DNA of 64,000 nucleotides, taken from IMG/VR virus record IMGVR_UViG_3300025030_000038, positions 372,001 to 436,000 of that record; one strand, 5' to 3'. Shown piece by piece: positions 10,801 through 64,000 of this stretch. The stretch is from a virus. The notes under the pieces are model-generated. The model did no database searches, had not been told where the DNA came from, and saw only the letters and a program-made list of their open reading frames with translations. The position numbers and the translations under genes were made by a program. Every line of letters begins with the position of its first letter. Positions within the stretch are counted from its first letter, which is position 1.

Positions 10801-12781
10801 TGTCTTCAATATCACCGTCAATGGGGTGTTGGTCGCCGTTACGTTCACTGGATCTGGCGCAGGAACTCTAACGGCCCTTGGTCCCAAGACCACAGCTGGT
10901 TCAATCCTCAATACCATCCAGGCAGCTTTTTCGGCAGTGCCGGGAACCATCACCCCAGTTGCAATTCAAGAGGGGGCTGGTATCCGAATCTACGGGGCAG
11001 GGACAGACTCCTTCTCACAGACGGCAACCTTCATCATCGGTAGTGGCTCTGCCAATGCCACCCTTGGGTTCACCACAGGTGCAGTGGCAACCGCAACGGG
11101 TGTCACGGCCAAGCAGGTTGCTTCGACCCTGATGTCTCACGTTCAGACCTATGCTTCATGGGTTCTCGACCCTTCAGCGGTGGGTGCAGGATACTTCGCC
11201 AGCAAGGCAATTGCGGGCGTCGAAGTGGGTCTCACGAACAAGGAGTACGTGTACATCCAGAGCAGGACCCTGGGCACAGCATCAAGCTTTGCCTTCGCGA
11301 ATGCTACAACCCTGGACGCACTTCGAACCGGAACAGGCCTGGGTCTGGTATCCGGTGATGGGGCGAACGGTGAGGCAGCCATCAATGGCTTCTTCGTCAA
11401 GTCCTCAGATCCAACAAATGGGTCGGGATCCGCAAACACCTCGGTCCTCAATACCGCAACCGCAGGTACAGGCCAGGATGGGTCGGTTGGACAGACTTAC
11501 GTGGACGATGTGACGGGCCTCACCTTCACAATACTTCCACGAGACGGTGGCCTAGACTACCCAACGGGATCAAATGCCACCCTGACCTTCCGGTCCTCCA
11601 CAACTATCCTCACGGATAGCAACATCCCAGTCCTGGCCATTCCTGGCCTGGAGCTGACAGTGTCCAACACGGTTGATGTCCCAGCAGGGGATACCGCCTT
11701 GGTGGAGACCTTCAAGCGTGGTGGGTCGGAGCCCTCAATTGGGGAGGCCTACTACGTCAGCTACAACTACACGAAGACGGACTTCACTCCTAAGCTCTTC
11801 GCGAAGCTGTCTGACGTGGTCAACGAGTATGGCCCCGTCTCTCCAGATAACCCCCTCTCGCTGGCCGCACACCTTGCCTTCCTGAATGGGTCAACAGTCA
11901 TCGGTACCATGCAGGTACAGAAGACCACCGGTTCCTCACAGGCATCGGAAGCAGCTTACCTGACGGCAATGGATGACTCAGCGGGGGATTGCCTCCCAGG
12001 GTCACTCAGCCCCACAGTGTTGGTGTTCCTGACCCCAGCAACCGCGAACCTTGTCAAGAACGTGTCTATCCACTGTGATGTGCAATCGTCCATCCGGTTC
12101 AAGGCAGAGCGTACCGCAATCTTCGGGTTCGCAGCAGGTACCAGGGCAGACCAAGTGGGCCTAATCGCCCAGACCGCGGGCTCCACCCGTGTCCGGTTTG
12201 TCTACCCAGAGATCGCAACCGTGTCTCTCACGGATGTTTTTGGGAAGGTGAAGAGTTACTTGGTGGATGGTCGGTACCCAGCTGCGGCTCTTGCAGCGGC
12301 AACCACCTCCCCAACCATTGACCCGGCAACCCCCTGGGAGAGCCGCCAACTGGTTGGCTTCACCCTTAGCCGTCGCCTCAGCACGACAACGGCAAACCAG
12401 ATCGCGATCAAGGGCATCACAGTCCTGGAAAATAAGCCCCCATTCGTCAAGGTCCGCCACGGTCTGACATCGGATATGTCCAATATCCTGACCAAGACCC
12501 CAACGGTCATCCAGATCACGGACGAGATGCAACGTCGCGTCAGGGCAGTCCTGGACCCCTTCAAGGGCCAGAAGTTCCTGCCACAAGTTCTCGGACAGAT
12601 CGAGGGGCAGCTCTCGGAGATGTACAAGAGGGCAGTCGCTGAGCAGATCATCGCAGCCTTCAAGGGCATCTCGGTCATTCCAGACCCGGAGGATCCAACG
12701 GGTGTGCTGGCGGATTCGTACTTCGCCCCAGTCTTCCCACTCCTCTACATCCAGGTCACACAGCGCGTCACCAGCACCTGA
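7823..12781 (+). CDS. Contractile tail sheath protein, unusually long
   Basis: I start at ATG 7823, which has GGAG 8 bases upstream. In-frame TTG 7784 is less likely. The ~1650-aa product starts with a sheath-type N-terminus (residues about 11-20, PPGVYTQTFF). It ends with a domain of about 250 residues (FTLSRRLSTTTANQIAIKG ... LYIQVTQRV) resembling the conserved sheath C-terminal core. Usual sheaths are about 400-700 aa. The excess lies in the middle and consists of repeated beta modules. Some carry YYFN- or YYYNT-type ends (residues about 155-360 and 520-560), others GDGNANGVLGF near residue 265 and GSGSANATLGF near residue 1075. The sheath surrounds the tail tube and contracts to drive it into the host. 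The downstream tube gene agrees with this. Confidence 0.85.
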   Translation: MPSLLNGGYAPPGVYTQTFFGAPPVPPSVPPVLPLFIGTGLETLSQSNLPVVRGSSSTVDQQIVSEDEADRMVVSVNPDGSITLGAFDGTSNRFQVKNFPIVSGDGTGTAATDTSAVSVTVNGDAIVVLGLDSATGLVEISEYPLATDVVLCTYFFDRTDTQVTDDVSSQVTTTAAILDGQTGENFAFVLSTTDTFKVAVDGLAQVSITMPTSAVSFTAAVVVATINGASGIGSLVATAYTNYLGRVCIRLTADVSIVLGDGNANGVLGFVANQSTARNRTFYVFNGPIVTGDGGGVTSTNPADLVVEVDGVAVTATSVDGRTRAVTLPAAPVVGSTVTIQYYFNTWQDTFDYLANTGISAITRAAITPNSNGAGVFIQGSDYILKNDTILWGTASLVSSGLHTEGFTAFGSTQVTASLVDNRAYLSPCSTVLVTSGNVSVESRTQFQLAFQPTTGNGRSNPLGSSMYLTVANDRMDLPTDQPELVTAYWGFGVLDALNRGAVTVLKVDSETSTITLGSEVPEGATVYATFYYNTLVDQAFVGSSRGYTLTCVTPGTSGVGTYSLVDGLSRSKYGVTLTSKGTDLATVTVNFPSGSELFPDARIEGGTPIDETVVVRFETSDTTPARFTFPASGPYFTVPGQSSNLRVTIDGVAGSTGGVGGIDLTLPSGVGRAGAFASLLGGEVAYTAASGETTYTVVAGVDDVVSVLVDGVSLTATSAAGAVTVAAYATAINAAAIAGGAADPYYTAAGSFAQGYTVTINEYDRLMFNYTGATSGTSGSQTVTLTPATYTAATLAAEISAQIAIAVGLLAAPFLGLAIVCTATADSKMRFTLTQAAGDASGVLEFIVGGTPARDFAIIAGIDTAAAAAGAQTKLYSGPIATRHTVATTGGRLPYDRLILRNRIMPGAGSLAPFHALSITGLASQGGTGAVKAGLPAGATGEAAYRGTALGPTFLGVPGWVDGIGTGFADARDGMPVVRFYDGSDPSFPANNVFNITVNGVLVAVTFTGSGAGTLTALGPKTTAGSILNTIQAAFSAVPGTITPVAIQEGAGIRIYGAGTDSFSQTATFIIGSGSANATLGFTTGAVATATGVTAKQVASTLMSHVQTYASWVLDPSAVGAGYFASKAIAGVEVGLTNKEYVYIQSRTLGTASSFAFANATTLDALRTGTGLGLVSGDGANGEAAINGFFVKSSDPTNGSGSANTSVLNTATAGTGQDGSVGQTYVDDVTGLTFTILPRDGGLDYPTGSNATLTFRSSTTILTDSNIPVLAIPGLELTVSNTVDVPAGDTALVETFKRGGSEPSIGEAYYVSYNYTKTDFTPKLFAKLSDVVNEYGPVSPDNPLSLAAHLAFLNGSTVIGTMQVQKTTGSSQASEAAYLTAMDDSAGDCLPGSLSPTVLVFLTPATANLVKNVSIHCDVQSSIRFKAERTAIFGFAAGTRADQVGLIAQTAGSTRVRFVYPEIATVSLTDVFGKVKSYLVDGRYPAAALAAATTSPTIDPATPWESRQLVGFTLSRRLSTTTANQIAIKGITVLENKPPFVKVRHGLTSDMSNILTKTPTVIQITDEMQRRVRAVLDPFKGQKFLPQVLGQIEGQLSEMYKRAVAEQIIAAFKGISVIPDPEDPTGVLADSYFAPVFPLLYIQVTQRVTST

Positions 12782-52645: not shown

Positions 52646-53070
52646 CAGGAATCGTTACCACCAAGCTGCCAGATCTAGCTTGGGGGGAGCCAACTATAGC
52701 CCGGGTTATTCCTTACGGGGATGACCGGTGGGGGCAGTTTCGGTTTCTAGTGGGCACTGATTGGGAGCCACTGTTTCCGTTGGTCCCTGATGGCATCCTG
52801 GATCAAGCCCTGAGAGGTTATGTCACCCCCTTGATGCGGATACTGGGGCCTCCACCTAAGGCCCTTGTGAAGAGGTTGCCAATGGCGGATACCTTGTGCA
52901 TGAACAGGAAGTCCTGTATCTCCTATGTGCCTTCCAAATGTGTCCCCAGTCCCACCACACCGGACTGCTGGGAGGCTGAAGTGTTCCCTGAGAATAGGAG
53001 CCTCATCAACAACCTAGTAATGCTCTGGCGTGATGGGATTGTGGTCATCATTACGGTCCCGGAAGAGTAA
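52642..53070 (+). CDS. Hypothetical protein
   Basis: The ATG is in an ATGA overlap with the primase-like gene. The 142-aa product is mixed alpha/beta, with VIPYGDDRWGQFRFLVG and several Cys residues (CMNRKSCISYVPSKC) in the second half that could bind metal. It ends VVIITVPEE. It has no signal peptide. It lies between the primase-like and polymerase genes. I do not recognise the family. Confidence 0.6.
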   Translation: MTGIVTTKLPDLAWGEPTIARVIPYGDDRWGQFRFLVGTDWEPLFPLVPDGILDQALRGYVTPLMRILGPPPKALVKRLPMADTLCMNRKSCISYVPSKCVPSPTTPDCWEAEVFPENRSLINNLVMLWRDGIVVIITVPEE

Positions 53071-53090: not shown

Positions 53091-53264
53091 ATGTCACAAA
53101 AAGTCGCTTTCACCGTGGTGGCAAGATATCGGGGGGATGCCCCAGACGATGGCTATATTGAGACAATCCGAAGGCACCTGGAGAATGCTTTGGAGGTAGA
53201 GAATGCCCGTCTCAGTATGAATTTCGTACTTCGCATTGAGGAGCAAGAATCCACACATGTCTGA
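53091..53264 (+). CDS. Small hypothetical protein, 57 aa
   Basis: An ORF reads MSQKVAFTVVARYRGDAPDD, then GYIETIRRHLENALEVENAR and a short end. A GAGGAGAGG site lies about 8 bases upstream of the ATG. The stop overlaps the start of the polymerase by 8 bases, which supports coupled translation. It has a beta strand followed by a helix and no known motif. Confidence 0.6.
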   Translation: MSQKVAFTVVARYRGDAPDDGYIETIRRHLENALEVENARLSMNFVLRIEEQESTHV

Positions 53265-56200
53265 CGTTTTCTCGTTTCTGGAGGATGCCAATACCCTCAA
53301 GATCACCCCAAAGCCATGGATGACCAGTGGTAAGTTCCAGTTGGTCCGAGTGACTGCTGATGCCCTACCAGGGGTCATTGATGCCTGTATGGCATCTGGC
53401 CTCTACTCACTGGACCTGGAGACAACTGGGCTTGACACAAGGGTTTTCGATGGGGAGACCAATTCCAAGATCGTTGGGTGCTGTCTTTCTCCTGACGGTA
53501 AGACCGGCTACTACATCCCCCTTCGGCACAAGAAGGGGGTCGAGCACAATATTCCCTGGTCCGCGTTCCGCCGGGAGTTGTCTCGTCTAGTTGCAAGTCC
53601 CGCCAGGGCTATTTTCCATAATGGTAAGTTCGACCAGGAGTTCCTTCAGTTCAATGGTGGGGAGCCTATTGGCGAGTGGGATGAGGCTGGTAAGTGGGAG
53701 GACACGCTCATCCTGGCATACTTGAGGGATACACGGGCTAAGAAGAAGGGATTGAAGCACCTAGCTCAAACCGAGCTGGGTATGGAGATGTTGGAGCTTG
53801 AGGAGCTTTTCCCAGAGGGCACCAAGAATTTGGACTTCTCAGAGTTGGACCCCTCGTGGGAGCCGATGATCTGGTATGCTGCATCGGATGCAATCTGTAC
53901 ATGGCTCCTGTATGAAAAGCTGGCCCCACAGGTATTGACGCCGGACGATGGGGTCAAAGGTCAGAAGTTCATCTACGACGTGGAGAGGCTCTGTGTGGCA
54001 GCTACCCGGTGGATGGAGCGCCCCAGGGTTCTAATGGACCAGGAGAAGGCCCGGGAGTTGATTAGAATTGGCCAGCGGGAATGGGTCTCATCTCTCCAGG
54101 AGGTGTATGGGTCGGCATCGGAGATTGTTGGCCGGGATATTAGGCCCGGGTACTACAAGCTCATGATGGGCACCATTGAGGCCAAGGAATCGGATCTCAC
54201 TTCTTGGAGAATGACCCTCGCATCCCTCAAGTTTGATCCAGATGTGGTGAGCCCCTCCTATATGGAGTTGGTCATTCAGGCTCGGTCAGAGTCGGACAAG
54301 CATGAGTTGGATCCCGTGGTCAAGGAGGGCAAAAAGGTCAAAGTACAGACCCTCACGAAGAGGGTCCTGTCAATGGTCAACAAGGGAGCCATGGAAGAGG
54401 TTGACTTCCCATTTGTGTATGATGTGCTCTCACCGGAGCAACTGGGCAGTCTCCTACGTGAGTGCAAGGTTCCTGGATTGACTGCTACGGAGAAGTCCGG
54501 TCAGGTGGCTACCAATCAGGATGAACTGGAACGTGTGCTTGAGGAAGCTGGGGACAAGTTTCCTTTTGCCACCAAGATCAAAAGGTTCCGGGAAATCTCC
54601 AAGGCCTTGTCGACCTATTTGCTCCCAATCATTGAGGATTGTGCTCCTGATGGTAGTTTGAGGGCTCACTTCAATGCGCACAAGATTGACACTGGCAGAT
54701 TCTGTGTTTCAGCCACCAAAGACAAAGATAAACGGGCACTTGATGGTGGGACGAGATTCCCCTTCCATGGCACACCAGCCACCTATGACCCGAAGCGGCC
54801 CGAGTGTTTGGCCCGCATTCGAGAGTGCATTATTGCAAGGCCCGGGAAGATTTTGTGCGCGATCGACTATTCTGGAGTCGAGCTGCGGATAGTAAGTAAC
54901 TTGTCCTATGAACCCAAGTGGCTCCGAGAGTTCTTCCACTGTTCTGGATGTGACCATATGTTTGCGGGAGGAGACGGGACATGTACCCCTGAAGCCCCAC
55001 CTCCATATTGTCCCACCTGTGGTAGTGACAAGATAGGGGACCTCCACACCCTTACTGGATTGGCAATATTCGGAGCGGACGCTATTAACCGGGCTGACTG
55101 GAAGAAGCTGAGGGGAGATTCCAAATGTGTGCACCCAGATACTTTAGTGGTTCGTCCGGAGGGGGTTCATACTATTGGAGGGGTGGTGGGTGTGGGAGCA
55201 CCAGACACCTTTGTGTCTTCATCCGGGTCAGTTTGGGCAGGGGAAACTTGGGCCCCAATAATGGAGAATTACTACGGGGATGTCAAGCCCTTATATCATG
55301 TGGTCACAACTCATGGTATCTTGACATGTTCCGATAACCATGGCATCAAGTTGGCCGATGGGAGTGTGAAGACGCTGCATGAGGGGTTGGGGAGGGGGGA
55401 CTATTTAGCAGTGCCTACAAGTATGCCCCTGATTTCTGACCTTCCATTCGAACCCATTCAGATTAAACTGAACGAGTGTGTCCCGCCTTGCATATATACC
55501 CCAAACTACGCAATGGCATATTTCGCTGGGCTGATATCAGGAGACGGGGCTACTCGCACCGCAAGTAGCATGATTGTTCATGGTCATATTGATAAGGTAG
55601 ACCGGCTGGGGGTACCTTACCGGCTGTGGCAGGACATTCTTGTGGGTACCTGCAATGATTTGGGGCTTAAACCGGTTAGACGACCCGAAGGTGTCTATCT
55701 GGGTAGTGCCATTTTGGCTAGATTTTTAGAACACCTTGGTTTGGTGTTTGAGTGCCAGGGGGTTGGAAAGGGTAAAGCAAACCGGACACTCCGTATTCCA
55801 CCTTGGGTGCTAAAATCAGGGCCTAAGGCTATATACCGCTTCCTTGGTGGTCTGATGGATACAGATGGTACTGTGGCCGTGGACGGGGCGGCATCTATTA
55901 CCACCAAGGACGCCATCTTTGCCGGTCAGATAGCGGCAGTGCTGCAAGCCTGCGGTAAGCATGTCGTGGTAGAGCCTTCCTGGAACAAAACATATCGGCG
56001 GTGGTATTATCGAGTCCACCTTCCAACGTCACACTCGTATTTTCTTAAGCAGTATATGAAGCACCCGGGAAAGATTGCTCGATTGCGGAAGATTCCCATA
56101 GGGAGGTTGAAGGTTACAAATCAGATCATCAGGGTTATTCCGGCAACTAAAGGGCTCTGTGTGGATTTTCATCTGGGTACTAGTTCTCATCTCTATTGGG

Positions 56201-58512
56201 CCAATGGGATCATAACGCATAATAGCTGCAATTTTGCCCTCTGTTACGGGGGTGGTGGGAATGCTGTAGTCAATGCGGTGGGGTGCGACAAGAACGAGGG
56301 CTGGCGCATCAAGAACGAGTTTGACAAAACCTACAAGGTGCTTGCCGGATGGTGGGTAGAGAAGCACAAGTTTGCCAGAAAACACAAATTTGTAACCACT
56401 GCATTTGGTCGGCGTCTTCCGATGCCAGACATTGATCATGCTATGGGTGGGATCAAGTCCAAGGCTGAGCGAAACTCAGTGAACAGCCCCGTTCAAGGCT
56501 GCCTCCATCCCGAGAGCAGAATTCCAACGTCCCTTGGTCTGCTCACCCTCCAGGAATTGTGGGATAGGCAGTCCGCAGGAGAGTTCAATGGGTTTGATGT
56601 CTGGACAGGAAAGGCATGGGCACCTGGAAGAGTGTTGTTCTCGGGGGAAAAACTCCTCAGGACTACAACTTTTGAAAGTGGGAAGATAACCCAGACCAGC
56701 CCTGAGCATCTGTTTAGGGTATGGGCATCCCAGGGATTTAAGTGGGTACCCCAGGAAGACCTCCAGATAGGGGATTGGGTAGCTACAGGGGCAATGCCAA
56801 TAGAGTGGGGTGTCCCTAAGTATCAATATAGGTCGGAGGCCCGACCGCAAGAGGGTCACCTGTTCAACAAGGGCATGACGGCCCACAACTCCAAGTCTTT
56901 CTTAATTGATGGAAATCACCCAGACTTGTGGGAGTTTCTGGGGATGGTTTACGGAGATGGGTCGATTGGTAAAGAGAATCTGATCGTACATGTGGGGGAG
57001 AACCGAGATTACCCGGAGTTCTCATCTCAAGTATATGCAAACTCATGGGTAGTGCGACTCAATCAATTTTTGAATGCAGGCGCTATTGCCCGTAAGAAGG
57101 TGACTAAAGAAGGAACCACAAAAAAGGGTGCTCCCTACCTTCCCATGTGGGAGATAAAGGTCCACAATAAGGAATTCCGCACCTTCTGTAGGGATGTTTT
57201 GGGGGTATTAGACCAAAATACCTACACCAAGCGGTTCCCCCGTGCTGTGTGGTCTGAGTCAAAGGAGAACCGGGCAGCATTTCTACGGGGATACTTCAGC
57301 GCAGATGGGACAGTGAGCGAGGACACAAGGGGGTCCTTGGACAGCTCTATTGGATTTTCGGTAAGGAGCACAAACCAGGGCTTGCTCAAGGACACACAGG
57401 ATCTATTGGGTACCCTAGGAATACGGGCAAATTATACCCCCAGATCTTTGCGCACAACTGTTCTGGATAGATGGGCATTTAGAGAGCAGGTGGGATACAA
57501 CATAGACTTCAAAACAGAACGGGCCATGGACATGGTATTGTGCCCACAGTCGTCCAACAAATACTTCATGCCTCCTGATTTGACTAGTTGGATTGGTGGG
57601 GTAGTGAAGGCATCCACTGTGGCCTATGGCCCTTTGGCTTCCGATAAAAAGTCCGCAGTTCTGAGGCTAGTGGCGGGGTCCGGGAGTAAACCACAGTGCC
57701 TGAAGTACCTGGATATGGTTCCTGAGGTGGAGGTTCCAACAGGGATGCAATTTGCCCTGGGGTATAACTATGAACGAGTCACCAAGAAGTCCAATGACAT
57801 GGGCCTAGTCACCATGTATGACATCGAAGTGTTTGATGATGACCATGCTTTCGTGTGTGATGGGGTGATTACTCATAACACAAGTGCTGACATCACCAAA
57901 CTGGCAATGGGGCTCATCTATAAGGAGTGCAAGAAGCGAGACTGGCTTGAGAAGGTCCACATGCTTCTCACGATGCATGACGAGCTTGTATTCGAGATTG
58001 ATAAGGACATCCTAGAAGAGGCCCTTGACACGTTTGTGCCTATTATGTGTCGCAACAAGGCTATCCTGAACCTCAAGTGGCCCGTCCCATTGACATCCGA
58101 TGTAGAGATGGGGATGGATTGGACCGTGCATTGGAACCTCAAAGAGATGCGTAGGGATGGGGTCTGCCCCCCTGAACTAGAGGGCTGTTTCAAGGGGTTG
58201 GTCCCGAAGGATAAGAAGGTGGTATCTCCTCCTGAGGCTCAGGGGACCACTTTGGAAAGGGCATCGTCATCCCCGAAGACAACCACACCCCAGTCCAAGC
58301 CACCTTCCTCGCCCCCCAAGGATGGTCCAGTCAGGATCTATCAGCTCAAGTCCCTTGGGTTGAGTGAGTTGGAGCCTTTGGCCAGGATCATGGCGGGCGG
58401 GTCCCCCAATGCACCAGCCAGACTCAGGGTGCTGGATCCAGAGGGGGGGGACATTACAGGGGTACTGTCTACCGTGTGGGGCGGTACAATACCTAACGTG
58501 GAGCTAGAATGA
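53257..58512 (+). CDS. Family A DNA polymerase with two inteins
   Basis: I start at ATG 53257 (MSDVFSFLED), upstream of which GAGGAG lies at about 53238. The precursor is 1751 aa and mature about 925 aa. The 3'-5' exonuclease shows Asp53/Glu55 in SLDLETTG, then NGKFDQEF and YAASDAICTWLLYE. Motif A is AIDYSGVELRI (Asp537), the O-helix is RGDSK/SCNFALCYGGG, and motif C is MHDELVFE. The inteins sit in the O-helix and the PVQG/TSAD site. Between motif A and the O-helix there is an extra zinc-ribbon-like insert CSGCDHMF ... YCPTCGSDK. A ~110-aa Pro/Ser/Thr-rich C-terminal extension follows. Confidence 0.9.
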   Translation: MSDVFSFLEDANTLKITPKPWMTSGKFQLVRVTADALPGVIDACMASGLYSLDLETTGLDTRVFDGETNSKIVGCCLSPDGKTGYYIPLRHKKGVEHNIPWSAFRRELSRLVASPARAIFHNGKFDQEFLQFNGGEPIGEWDEAGKWEDTLILAYLRDTRAKKKGLKHLAQTELGMEMLELEELFPEGTKNLDFSELDPSWEPMIWYAASDAICTWLLYEKLAPQVLTPDDGVKGQKFIYDVERLCVAATRWMERPRVLMDQEKARELIRIGQREWVSSLQEVYGSASEIVGRDIRPGYYKLMMGTIEAKESDLTSWRMTLASLKFDPDVVSPSYMELVIQARSESDKHELDPVVKEGKKVKVQTLTKRVLSMVNKGAMEEVDFPFVYDVLSPEQLGSLLRECKVPGLTATEKSGQVATNQDELERVLEEAGDKFPFATKIKRFREISKALSTYLLPIIEDCAPDGSLRAHFNAHKIDTGRFCVSATKDKDKRALDGGTRFPFHGTPATYDPKRPECLARIRECIIARPGKILCAIDYSGVELRIVSNLSYEPKWLREFFHCSGCDHMFAGGDGTCTPEAPPPYCPTCGSDKIGDLHTLTGLAIFGADAINRADWKKLRGDSKCVHPDTLVVRPEGVHTIGGVVGVGAPDTFVSSSGSVWAGETWAPIMENYYGDVKPLYHVVTTHGILTCSDNHGIKLADGSVKTLHEGLGRGDYLAVPTSMPLISDLPFEPIQIKLNECVPPCIYTPNYAMAYFAGLISGDGATRTASSMIVHGHIDKVDRLGVPYRLWQDILVGTCNDLGLKPVRRPEGVYLGSAILARFLEHLGLVFECQGVGKGKANRTLRIPPWVLKSGPKAIYRFLGGLMDTDGTVAVDGAASITTKDAIFAGQIAAVLQACGKHVVVEPSWNKTYRRWYYRVHLPTSHSYFLKQYMKHPGKIARLRKIPIGRLKVTNQIIRVIPATKGLCVDFHLGTSSHLYWANGIITHNSCNFALCYGGGGNAVVNAVGCDKNEGWRIKNEFDKTYKVLAGWWVEKHKFARKHKFVTTAFGRRLPMPDIDHAMGGIKSKAERNSVNSPVQGCLHPESRIPTSLGLLTLQELWDRQSAGEFNGFDVWTGKAWAPGRVLFSGEKLLRTTTFESGKITQTSPEHLFRVWASQGFKWVPQEDLQIGDWVATGAMPIEWGVPKYQYRSEARPQEGHLFNKGMTAHNSKSFLIDGNHPDLWEFLGMVYGDGSIGKENLIVHVGENRDYPEFSSQVYANSWVVRLNQFLNAGAIARKKVTKEGTTKKGAPYLPMWEIKVHNKEFRTFCRDVLGVLDQNTYTKRFPRAVWSESKENRAAFLRGYFSADGTVSEDTRGSLDSSIGFSVRSTNQGLLKDTQDLLGTLGIRANYTPRSLRTTVLDRWAFREQVGYNIDFKTERAMDMVLCPQSSNKYFMPPDLTSWIGGVVKASTVAYGPLASDKKSAVLRLVAGSGSKPQCLKYLDMVPEVEVPTGMQFALGYNYERVTKKSNDMGLVTMYDIEVFDDDHAFVCDGVITHNTSADITKLAMGLIYKECKKRDWLEKVHMLLTMHDELVFEIDKDILEEALDTFVPIMCRNKAILNLKWPVPLTSDVEMGMDWTVHWNLKEMRRDGVCPPELEGCFKGLVPKDKKVVSPPEAQGTTLERASSSPKTTTPQSKPPSSPPKDGPVRIYQLKSLGLSELEPLARIMAGGSPNAPARLRVLDPEGGDITGVLSTVWGGTIPNVELE
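55126..56223 (+). mobile_element. Intein 1 in the DNA polymerase, O-helix site
   Basis: The 366-aa intein begins at Cys1 (CVHPDTLVVRPEGVHT), ends WANGIITHN and is followed by Ser+1. It splits the polymerase O-helix after RGDSK. It contains YFAGLISGDGAT and FLGGLMDTDGTVA, the two LAGLIDADG-like motifs. Confidence 0.9.
56500..57879 (+). mobile_element. Intein 2 in the DNA polymerase, PVQG/T site
   Basis: The 460-aa intein begins at Cys1 (CLHPESRIPTSLGLLT), ends VCDGVITHN and is followed by Thr+1 (TSADITKLAMG). It splits the conserved NSPVQG/T motif. It has FLGMVYGDGSIG and AAFLRGYFSADGTV. Confidence 0.9.
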
Positions 58513-62317: not shown

Positions 62318-62749
62318 ATGCCATCCATTCAAGACACCATCCTCAACCTCCTGGAGACTCAGGCCCTTCCAGTGGCACTGGCTCAGCTTCAGGCGGTTAG
62401 GGACAATGCTAAGAAGGATTGGGAGAAGTCCCTGGTGGACATCACAATCAACTTCGCATCTCGTGAGGGCCATGAGGCGATTGGCTACCTGAAGGGCCTG
62501 ATTGCTGATCTCATTAAGGGAAAGATCGACATCTCCCTGTTTGAGAGCAAGCTTACTCTCAGGGAGGCCAGTGACCTATTGGCAGTCCTCCAGCAGCATG
62601 AGGCAGATACGAAGGATCAGGTTCACGTGATTCTTCAACAGATTGTAGACGCTTTGGTGGCAATCGGTCAAACGATGCTCAAGGTGCTCCTACAAGGTGC
62701 CGCTGGTGCAGTTGGCAATACAGCCCCAGTAACTACCCTTCTCCCTTAA
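62318..62749 (+). CDS. Helical hypothetical protein, 143 aa
   Basis: The ATG lies 3 bases after the lipoprotein stop. The product is helix-rich: LNLLETQALPVALAQLQAV, then LREASDLLAVLQQHEAD and QIVDALVAIGQTMLKVLLQG. The last segment (about 112-130) has a hydrophobic face or could be membrane-associated. No signal peptide. It may be an accessory to the lipoprotein. No family recognised. Confidence 0.6.
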   Translation: MPSIQDTILNLLETQALPVALAQLQAVRDNAKKDWEKSLVDITINFASREGHEAIGYLKGLIADLIKGKIDISLFESKLTLREASDLLAVLQQHEADTKDQVHVILQQIVDALVAIGQTMLKVLLQGAAGAVGNTAPVTTLLP

Positions 62750-62778
62750 CAGAGGGTGATGGGGCCTAAAGGAAAGCG

Positions 62779-63957
62779 ATGCTAACGCAGACCAACAGGA
62801 GAAAACGGTTGACTAGACAGGATGGCGCCGTGCCATCGGCTGAATCTACTGCCCGTGGCAGGGCGAGCGACATGCAGGGTGCCCCACTAGCCTTGCTTCC
62901 CTCGGTAGATCAGCGTCGAAGTGGTGTACACACCCTCGAAAGAGGGCCTTATCAGGTAGTTCCAGTCGTAGATAGCAATCAAAAACCCTTGATGCCAACA
63001 ACCCCAAGTAGGGCTCGACGTTGGATCAAGAACAAGGAAGCCACCCCGTTCTTCAAGCGGGGGATCTTCTGTGTCCGCCTCAATCGGGAGCCCTCCGCCC
63101 AGGAGAAACAACCAATAGCAGTAGGGATTGATCCTGGGTCCAAGAAGGAAGGGTTCACAGTTAAGTCAAAGGCCCACACCTTCCTCAATATTCAAGCCGA
63201 TGCCGTCCAGCATGTCAAGGATGCAGTGGAAACCCGACGGATGATGAGGAGAACCCGGCGATCCAGGAAGACCCCCTATCGAGCATCCAGGATGAATCGG
63301 AAGCAACGTGGGAGCTTAGCTCCAAGCACCAAAGCTAGATGGCAGTGGAAGATAAGAATTGTGGCTCAATTGGCCAAGATGTTCCCCATTACTGATCTGG
63401 TTGTGGAGGACATCAAGGCACGAACCGTCAAAGGGGTCCGGAAGTGGAACAAGAGTTTCTCCCCTTTGGAGATTGGAAAGACGTGGTTCTACAAGGAACT
63501 TGAGCAATTTGGGAAGGTGCATCTCAAGCAGGGATGGGAAACCAAGGCTCTTCGAGATGCCGTTGGATTGAAGAAGAGCAAAGCCAAGTTGTCTGAGGTA
63601 TTTGCAGCTCATTGTGTGGATAGCTGGGTCCTAGCCAATTGGCTAGTTGGTGGGCATACCCTCCCTGAGAACACCAATATGTTGTGTATCTCTCCTATTA
63701 GGTTCCATCGTAGGCAGTTGCATGTGATGGTTCCTGCCGTCGGGGGAATCAGGAAACCTTATGGGGGGACGAGGAGTTCTGGGTTTAAGCGGGGTTCTTT
63801 GGTGTCCCATCCCAAATATGGCCTGACTTACGTTGGAGGGGTTAGTAACAAAGGTCTAATCACCCTACAGACACTAAAAACAGGGGTCCGGGTTTATCGG
63901 AATGCCAAACCGGAAGATCTGGTGTTTCGGAGCTATAATGTTTGGAGGGTATGGTGA
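62779..63957 (+). CDS. isrB-like: IscB/IsrB-like RuvC nuclease (RRXRR type), no HNH domain
   Basis: The 392-aa frame has the IscB superfamily layout without HNH. A PLMP-type motif VVPVVDSNQKPLMPTTPSRA lies at about 59-78. RuvC-I GIDPGSKKEG has Asp118. An Arg-rich bridge helix MMRRTRRSRKTPYRASR spans 155-171. RuvC-II VVEDIKA has Glu210, and RuvC-III HCVDSWVLA has Asp281. A C-terminal RRQLH ... YGGT-type region follows. Lengths and order resemble IsrB, an RNA-guided nickase. AAGGA six bases before ATG 62779 supports that start, but the first ~55 codons overlap a hairpin-rich segment and may be untranslated; an in-frame ATG at 62872 is the alternative. Confidence 0.75.
   Translation: MLTQTNRRKRLTRQDGAVPSAESTARGRASDMQGAPLALLPSVDQRRSGVHTLERGPYQVVPVVDSNQKPLMPTTPSRARRWIKNKEATPFFKRGIFCVRLNREPSAQEKQPIAVGIDPGSKKEGFTVKSKAHTFLNIQADAVQHVKDAVETRRMMRRTRRSRKTPYRASRMNRKQRGSLAPSTKARWQWKIRIVAQLAKMFPITDLVVEDIKARTVKGVRKWNKSFSPLEIGKTWFYKELEQFGKVHLKQGWETKALRDAVGLKKSKAKLSEVFAAHCVDSWVLANWLVGGHTLPENTNMLCISPIRFHRRQLHVMVPAVGGIRKPYGGTRSSGFKRGSLVSHPKYGLTYVGGVSNKGLITLQTLKTGVRVYRNAKPEDLVFRSYNVWRVW
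62821..62946 (+). ncRNA. Candidate structured RNA (omega-RNA-like) overlapping the nuclease 5' end
   Basis: Three small hairpins can be drawn: GATGGC/GCCATC (62821-62837), CTGCC/GGCAG (62849-62861), and CCCTC-GAAA-GAGGG with a GNRA tetraloop (62933-62946). Such structure is expected upstream of IscB-family genes, whose guide RNA often overlaps the gene start. I could not find the conserved omega-RNA consensus from memory, so this is a candidate. The guide boundary is unknown. Confidence 0.4.
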
Positions 63958-64000
63958 TAGGGTCCATTAGACGATATCTGGCCGAGAAGAATTACGGGTT
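63954..64000 (+). CDS. Start of a further gene, cut by the window end
   Basis: After the nuclease frame, GTG (63954, with an ATG at 63951) begins an open frame reading VIGSIRRYLAEKNYG. GGAGG lies about 5 bases before the GTG. The overlap with the nuclease stop is typical of this genome. Only ~16 codons are visible, so the gene call is tentative. Confidence 0.4.
   Translation, partial: MIGSIRRYLAEKNYG

Follow-up and report, generated by a model that had tools for sequence, protein, structure and literature searches.

The role usually ascribed to OMEGA nucleases is to serve the transposons that carry them. Among members of this group with a solved structure, the one that most resembles the gene reported here is IsrB of Desulfovirgula thermocuniculi (DtIsrB, PDB 8dmb), which uses a 20-nt guide and an NTGA target-adjacent motif (TAM), can dispense with the first hairpin of its omegaRNA for nicking, and reads the fourth TAM base with Q326, a residue whose change to Arg admits TTGG and ATGG too (PMC9581776). 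In plasmids, gene drive has been reported for the TnpB of an IS200/605 element (PMC11870625). Here we describe an IsrB gene and its omegaRNA in a huge phage, close to the end of a 64,000-nt stretch (the window, meaning the whole stretch analyzed) that covers positions 372001-436000 of virus record IMGVR_UViG_3300025030_000038. The record is 485,040 bp in all, and GenBank entry LR745208.1 is the same phage.

The locus is like that of DtIsrB in its HNH-less domain order, in homology and fold over the full length of the protein, and in the omegaRNA that immediately precedes the gene and bears the guide at its 5′ end; in relatives of the window copy, NTGA also stands beyond the insertion. It differs from DtIsrB in sequence (about 30% identity in the structural alignment), in a frame that extends into the omegaRNA, in its phage location and in its missing right end. 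The IscB proteins (OgeuIscB, HfmIscB and TbaIscB) likewise have PLMP, RuvC, a bridge helix and an upstream omegaRNA, but the window protein is without their HNH domain and its insertion, and the sequence match is confined to the first 120-155 residues. Another IsrB-like phage gene is that of Microcystis phage Ma-LMM01 and relatives (RRXRR protein gp171, 37% identity), with left-end-like and omegaRNA-like sequence upstream; in contrast to the window phage, Ma-LMM01 has a right end (like the upstream sequence, recognized by eye) and a Y1 transposase in its genome. Because the covariance model described below (R1) gives no match in Ma-LMM01 at E 0.05, we claim an omegaRNA there by eye only. The plasmid drive of TnpB shares with the case proposed here a guide that records the insertion site, the targeting of empty copies and a multicopy replicon, but TnpB cuts both strands and belongs to a mobile element (PMC11870625), whereas the window holds a predicted nickase in an element that looks immobile.

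The IsrB protein and its guide RNA

The frame at 62779-63957 encodes a genuine IsrB. As the original prediction held, PLMP, RuvC-I (GIDPGSK), an Arg-rich bridge helix, RuvC-II (VVEDIK) and RuvC-III (HCVDSW) follow one another in this order; a C-terminal TAM-interacting part and an upstream omegaRNA complete the IsrB layout. No HNH domain was found in the frame by Pfam, NCBIfam or the structure model, so the protein lacks the HNH between RuvC-II and RuvC-III that would make it an IscB. Its IsrB-like identity is confirmed by a Pfam RRXRR match (E 5e-40) and by DtIsrB, which is both the closest PDB entry by sequence (E 4e-41 over about 305 residues, nearly the whole protein) and the top Foldseek match of the AlphaFold2 model (E 4e-27, target-normalised TM score 0.83). 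The NCBIfam IscB match is limited to residues 63-213 and falls under the model cut-off. The RuvC residues D118, E210, H278 and D281 are invariant across 59 relatives, the catalytic D/E/D being present, and by analogy the window IsrB is predicted to be a nickase of the non-target strand beside NTGA. Compared with relatives, its codons differ at 87/56/185 first, second and third positions (nonsynonymous divergence pN 0.20, synonymous divergence pS saturated), and since the differences concentrate at third positions the protein has been kept under strong purifying selection.

The predicted frame does exist, but not all of it is conserved protein. Its first ~57 residues fall inside the omegaRNA and are predicted to be disordered (the AlphaFold2 confidence measure pLDDT is below 50 at residues 1-56, and the model is mostly confident from about residue 61), and the conserved protein starts only at about 62956.

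The hairpin-rich stretch at the 5′ end of the frame, suggested earlier to hold a guide RNA, is an omegaRNA. About 210 nt upstream of the open reading frame (ORF) are common to close IMG/VR relatives, and model R1, built on 27 relatives with the window left out, has 30 consensus pairs, 24 of which show two-sided changes in the alignment. The model matches the window with 118.7 bits (E 4.6e-31). The expectation that covariance would reveal the RNA thus held for this family-specific model, which was decisive, and failed for Rfam, where no omegaRNA was found at the gathering threshold and nothing relevant at E up to 5, HEARO having been expected; because the model from relatives succeeds, the Rfam miss reflects library content. 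Within the window's own clade of four members, 13 pairs are changed on both sides as against 0-2 in slid controls, and one compensatory U-A pair is private to the window omegaRNA. The four-member alignment was fitted to the structure, so this count leans towards structure; the E value of model R1 is independent of it. The same model gave no convincing second omegaRNA in the phage genome, a 10-bit match near window position 53005 being weak.

We take the window guide as 20 nt because that is the guide length in DtIsrB (PMC9581776). Its last 18 nt, GTTGGCAATACAGCCCCA (62711-62728), occur a single time in the phage genome with up to three mismatches allowed, and no guide target was found elsewhere in that genome. 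Two exact 18-mers in IMG/VR were considered as outside targets and rejected, since neither has an adjoining TGA and their number is about the chance expectation.

Element boundaries and loss of the right end

The ends of the element can be read from near-identical copies at different sites. In such pairs the left boundary of homology is the first RNA base (GTCAACTACC...), and the right boundary comes after a hairpin, then TTTCC...RTGA. An empty site, which the original prediction proposed to find in related phages, was found for a cellular relative and not for the window locus: in this one case, which is cyanobacterial, comparison of two Microcoleus genomes, of which L042 has the element and L221 lacks it, shows the flanks joined directly, the guide running into ATGAAA with no target duplication, in agreement with the NTGA TAM and 20-nt guide of DtIsrB (PMC9581776). 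From the copy-pair ends and the L042/L221 template we placed the window guide and the GTGA on its TAM side as listed in Table 1. An IS200/IS605-type left end is present in the window from the first omegaRNA base, with its first hairpin (SL1) altered.

The right end has been lost. Relatives carry the right-end hairpin about 950-1000 nt past the PLMP methionine; in that place the window has TGGAGGGTATGGTGA and then the next gene. With a threshold of 5 bits, which is the highest score of the shuffled controls, a right-end profile scores above threshold in 46/65 phage and 64/78 cellular copies, and the hairpin was not detected in the window copy (profile score 2.8). The absence of TnpA noted in the original prediction extends to the whole 485-kb record, which may be incomplete and in which there are 0 matches to PF01797, the Y1 transposase; several IsrB-bearing phages, among them those with two to five copies, do have a Y1 transposase. 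Because the right end is lost and the genome is without a Y1 transposase, the window copy looks immobile, and the right-end loss, which the original prediction did not notice, speaks for an element that is fixed and does not transpose. Put most cautiously, the locus is a genuine IsrB-omegaRNA pair that has probably lost the ability to transpose.

Start codons, insertion sites and neighboring genes

The patterns of start codon, TAM residue and insertion site are exploratory, with thresholds set after inspection and relatedness uncorrected. Most relatives have an ATG 36-48 nt upstream of the PLMP methionine. The window and the three relatives nearest to it, which form one clade (98% support in the SH-like approximate likelihood ratio test, SH-aLRT), lack this near ATG, and their frame is open through the omegaRNA; the only in-frame starts upstream of the conserved N-terminus of the window IsrB are ATG 62779, TTG 62809, GTG 62830, ATG 62872 and TTG 62893, all within the omegaRNA. 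Upstream sequence was sufficient at 146 loci; of these, 14/25 without a near ATG keep the frame open over 218 nt or more vs 6/121 with one (Fisher p 9e-9), and the combination of missing ATG and open frame recurs in several tree branches. The 11 closed loci without a near ATG mostly have TTG or GTG at the usual position.

Translation could nevertheless start at an unusual codon just upstream of the conserved N-terminus, the open frame through the omegaRNA being due to chance. Substitutions in the overlap show no codon-position bias (8/19/19 and 13/16/17), so the extension is under no visible protein-level selection, and both this and the predicted disorder of the overlapping part suit an unusual start. 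On the other hand, the window has no ATG, GTG or TTG there, open frames are concentrated in loci without a near ATG, and in-frame starts inside the RNA are preceded by Shine-Dalgarno-like AAGGA or AGGAG. We regard an unusual start as a credible alternative with somewhat less than an even chance of being right.

At the position of DtIsrB Q326 (mapped by us from a profile alignment) the window protein has Arg, and residues other than Gln occupy this position in 9/18 phage copies without a right end vs 5/47 with one (Fisher p 0.001). The TAM NTG opens a frame of at least 40 codons in 23/32 phage and 20/27 cellular insertions vs 10/118 in the other two frames, from which it follows that IsrB elements sit immediately before start codons. 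If the cold-shock gene starts at ATG 63951, the TAM GTG of the window forms its second codon; alternatively, this GTG (63954) could be the original start of that gene.

Table 1. Features of the IsrB locus, in window coordinates
Feature	Position	Strand	Remarks
Upstream gene, function unassigned	62318..62749	+	Stop codon within first omegaRNA hairpin
Predicted guide segment CAGTTGGCAATACAGCCCCA	62709..62728	+	Final codons of upstream gene; directly 5′ of omegaRNA scaffold
OmegaRNA scaffold (left end of element)	62729..62936	+	Covariance model R1
IsrB open frame	62779..63957	+	392 codons; from ORF list
Conserved IsrB protein	62956..63957	+	PLMP, RuvC-I, bridge helix, RuvC-II, RuvC-III, C-terminal TAM-interacting part; HNH absent
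Cold-shock-domain gene, downstream	63951..64000, on to 64364 beyond window (L017:4951-5364)	+	ATG overlaps IsrB stop codon
GTGA, predicted TAM side of insertion	63954..63957	+	Contains IsrB stop TGA; family right-end hairpin missing before GTGA

That the upstream and cold-shock genes were once a single gene was considered and set aside: they join in frame, but this would happen by chance in one case out of three, and there are no relatives for comparison. Further upstream, a 1758-aa frame for a family A DNA polymerase (window 53236-58512) is broken by LAGLIDADG and Hom_end domains (Pfam), interruptions that would fit inteins, probably two in number. In the 9 kb that follow IsrB lie a GIY-YIG/NUMOD3 gene at L017:13614-14552 (+) and two related HNH-like proteins at L017:9632-10372 (-) and 11524-12306 (-), the latter recognized by eye and without a Pfam match.

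Related elements in other phages are varied. The IMG/VR contig 3300023213_000432 (327 kb; L214-L218) has five IsrB genes and 14 omegaRNA-model matches, among them three full-length orphan omegaRNAs (73379, 75938 and 99327) in ~460-bp elements that lack an IsrB ORF and differ from one another in their guides, as well as left-end fragments; the orphans could supply extra guides in trans. At the Ma-LMM01 locus (L219), an HNH-like endonuclease ORF (200L) takes the place of the bulk of IsrB and of the 3′ portion of the RNA region in phages MaMV-DL01 (L231) and DL02, both of which retain the IsrB tail and right end, between flanks that are 98% identical; phage MaMV-CH01 has IsrB. Microcystis phage Mic1 (L232:2500-2830) carries what by eye is a complete small element without an ORF, consisting of a left end, an omegaRNA-like region and a right-end hairpin, and lying immediately 5′ of the ATGA at which Mic1_19 starts. 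Tandem partial left-end copies, GTCACTAACCCC / GTCAACTACCC, stand directly 5′ of the omegaRNA in Ma-LMM01 (L219:2170-2310) and in L009:5711-5790. On the 411-kb phage contig 3300033489_000001 (L010:5700-6000) an IsrB without a right end keeps the 3′ half of its omegaRNA, the 5′ half not being alignable to the usual left-end hairpin; this could be a further fixed copy whose guide region has changed.

A proposed role in homing

We propose that the locus is an IsrB-omegaRNA pair (an OMEGA nickase) that descends from an IS200/IS605-type element, is now stranded in a huge phage and acts by RNA-guided homing, and we give this reading an even chance. Upstream transcription would produce an RNA with the last stretch of the upstream phage gene as its 5′ guide. 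The IsrB complex would bind the guide sequence where NTGA adjoins it (for this copy probably NTGR) and would nick the non-target strand. The occupied allele would be spared, because the TAM no longer adjoins the guide there. Since the left flank is the one match of the guide within the phage, the natural target would be the same locus without the insertion, carried by sister phages in co-infection, with an expected empty allele of CAGTTGGCAATACAGCCCCA followed by GTGATAGGG. Recombination repair after the nick would then copy IsrB into the empty allele, a homing or drive step that we propose by analogy with the TnpB drive of IS200/605 in plasmids (PMC11870625). We also count in favor of homing that the neighborhood of IsrB contains other homing-type genes, namely the polymerase with LAGLIDADG/Hom_end domains and the GIY-YIG gene.

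Several points weigh against homing. The first hairpin of the window omegaRNA is altered and its GTCAAC is short of one base, although DtIsrB can nick without that hairpin (PMC9581776), and the purifying selection on IsrB may partly be older than the right-end loss. For the window locus no empty allele came to light, neither flanking gene having relatives in IMG/VR and the upstream gene having none outside its own phage in IMG/VR or the phage records searched. Finally, we found no demonstration of nick-driven homing by IsrB in the literature consulted.

The locus might instead be a decaying remnant, inserted by a transposase from elsewhere and, with its right end lost, drifting without function. 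Such decay agrees with the lost right end, the lack of a start codon close to the conserved N-terminus and the altered first hairpin, but the ORF is intact with all invariant residues, its third-position bias is strong, the omegaRNA has acquired its private compensatory U-A pair, and other phage copies without a right end also keep their ORF (in loci that were chosen by homology); we consider decay rather unlikely. If the gene had been co-opted as an RNA-guided regulator of the phage or as a weapon against competitors, its guide would be selected and not set by insertion. The guide is, however, still the exact insertion flank, no other target was found beyond the two chance-level 18-mers, and the nuclease residues are intact. 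These points make co-option improbable in our judgement, even though the copy is fixed and non-mobile and phage-encoded TldR shows that TnpB relatives can become RNA-guided regulators (PMC13418256). An ordinary mobile element, still movable by a transposase in trans, is very improbable and was already weakened by the missing right-end hairpin and the absence of a Y1 transposase from the genome, despite relatives that clearly move, as is attested by near-identical copies found at different sites and by a phage that has several copies together with a Y1 transposase.

A broader version of the homing proposal, which we offer as speculation and would not expect to hold, is that phages repeatedly make fixed RNA-guided homing genes out of IsrB transposons. 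Everything at the right end as far as the TAM would be lost, and the TAM would be read less strictly, through a change of Gln to Arg or Lys. Some lineages would go on to use the guide RNA as the 5′ coding part of the nuclease message, one transcript serving as guide or mRNA. Were the omegaRNA indeed translated, it would be an unusual structured guide RNA that doubles as coding sequence. An IsrB that is conserved and keeps its guide RNA intact, yet has no means of transposing, is a natural test of what an RNA-guided nick does alone. The phage setting, with many genomes per cell, is one in which driving an allele would pay, and the availability in culture of Microcystis phages that either have or lack IsrB at one site makes homing testable.
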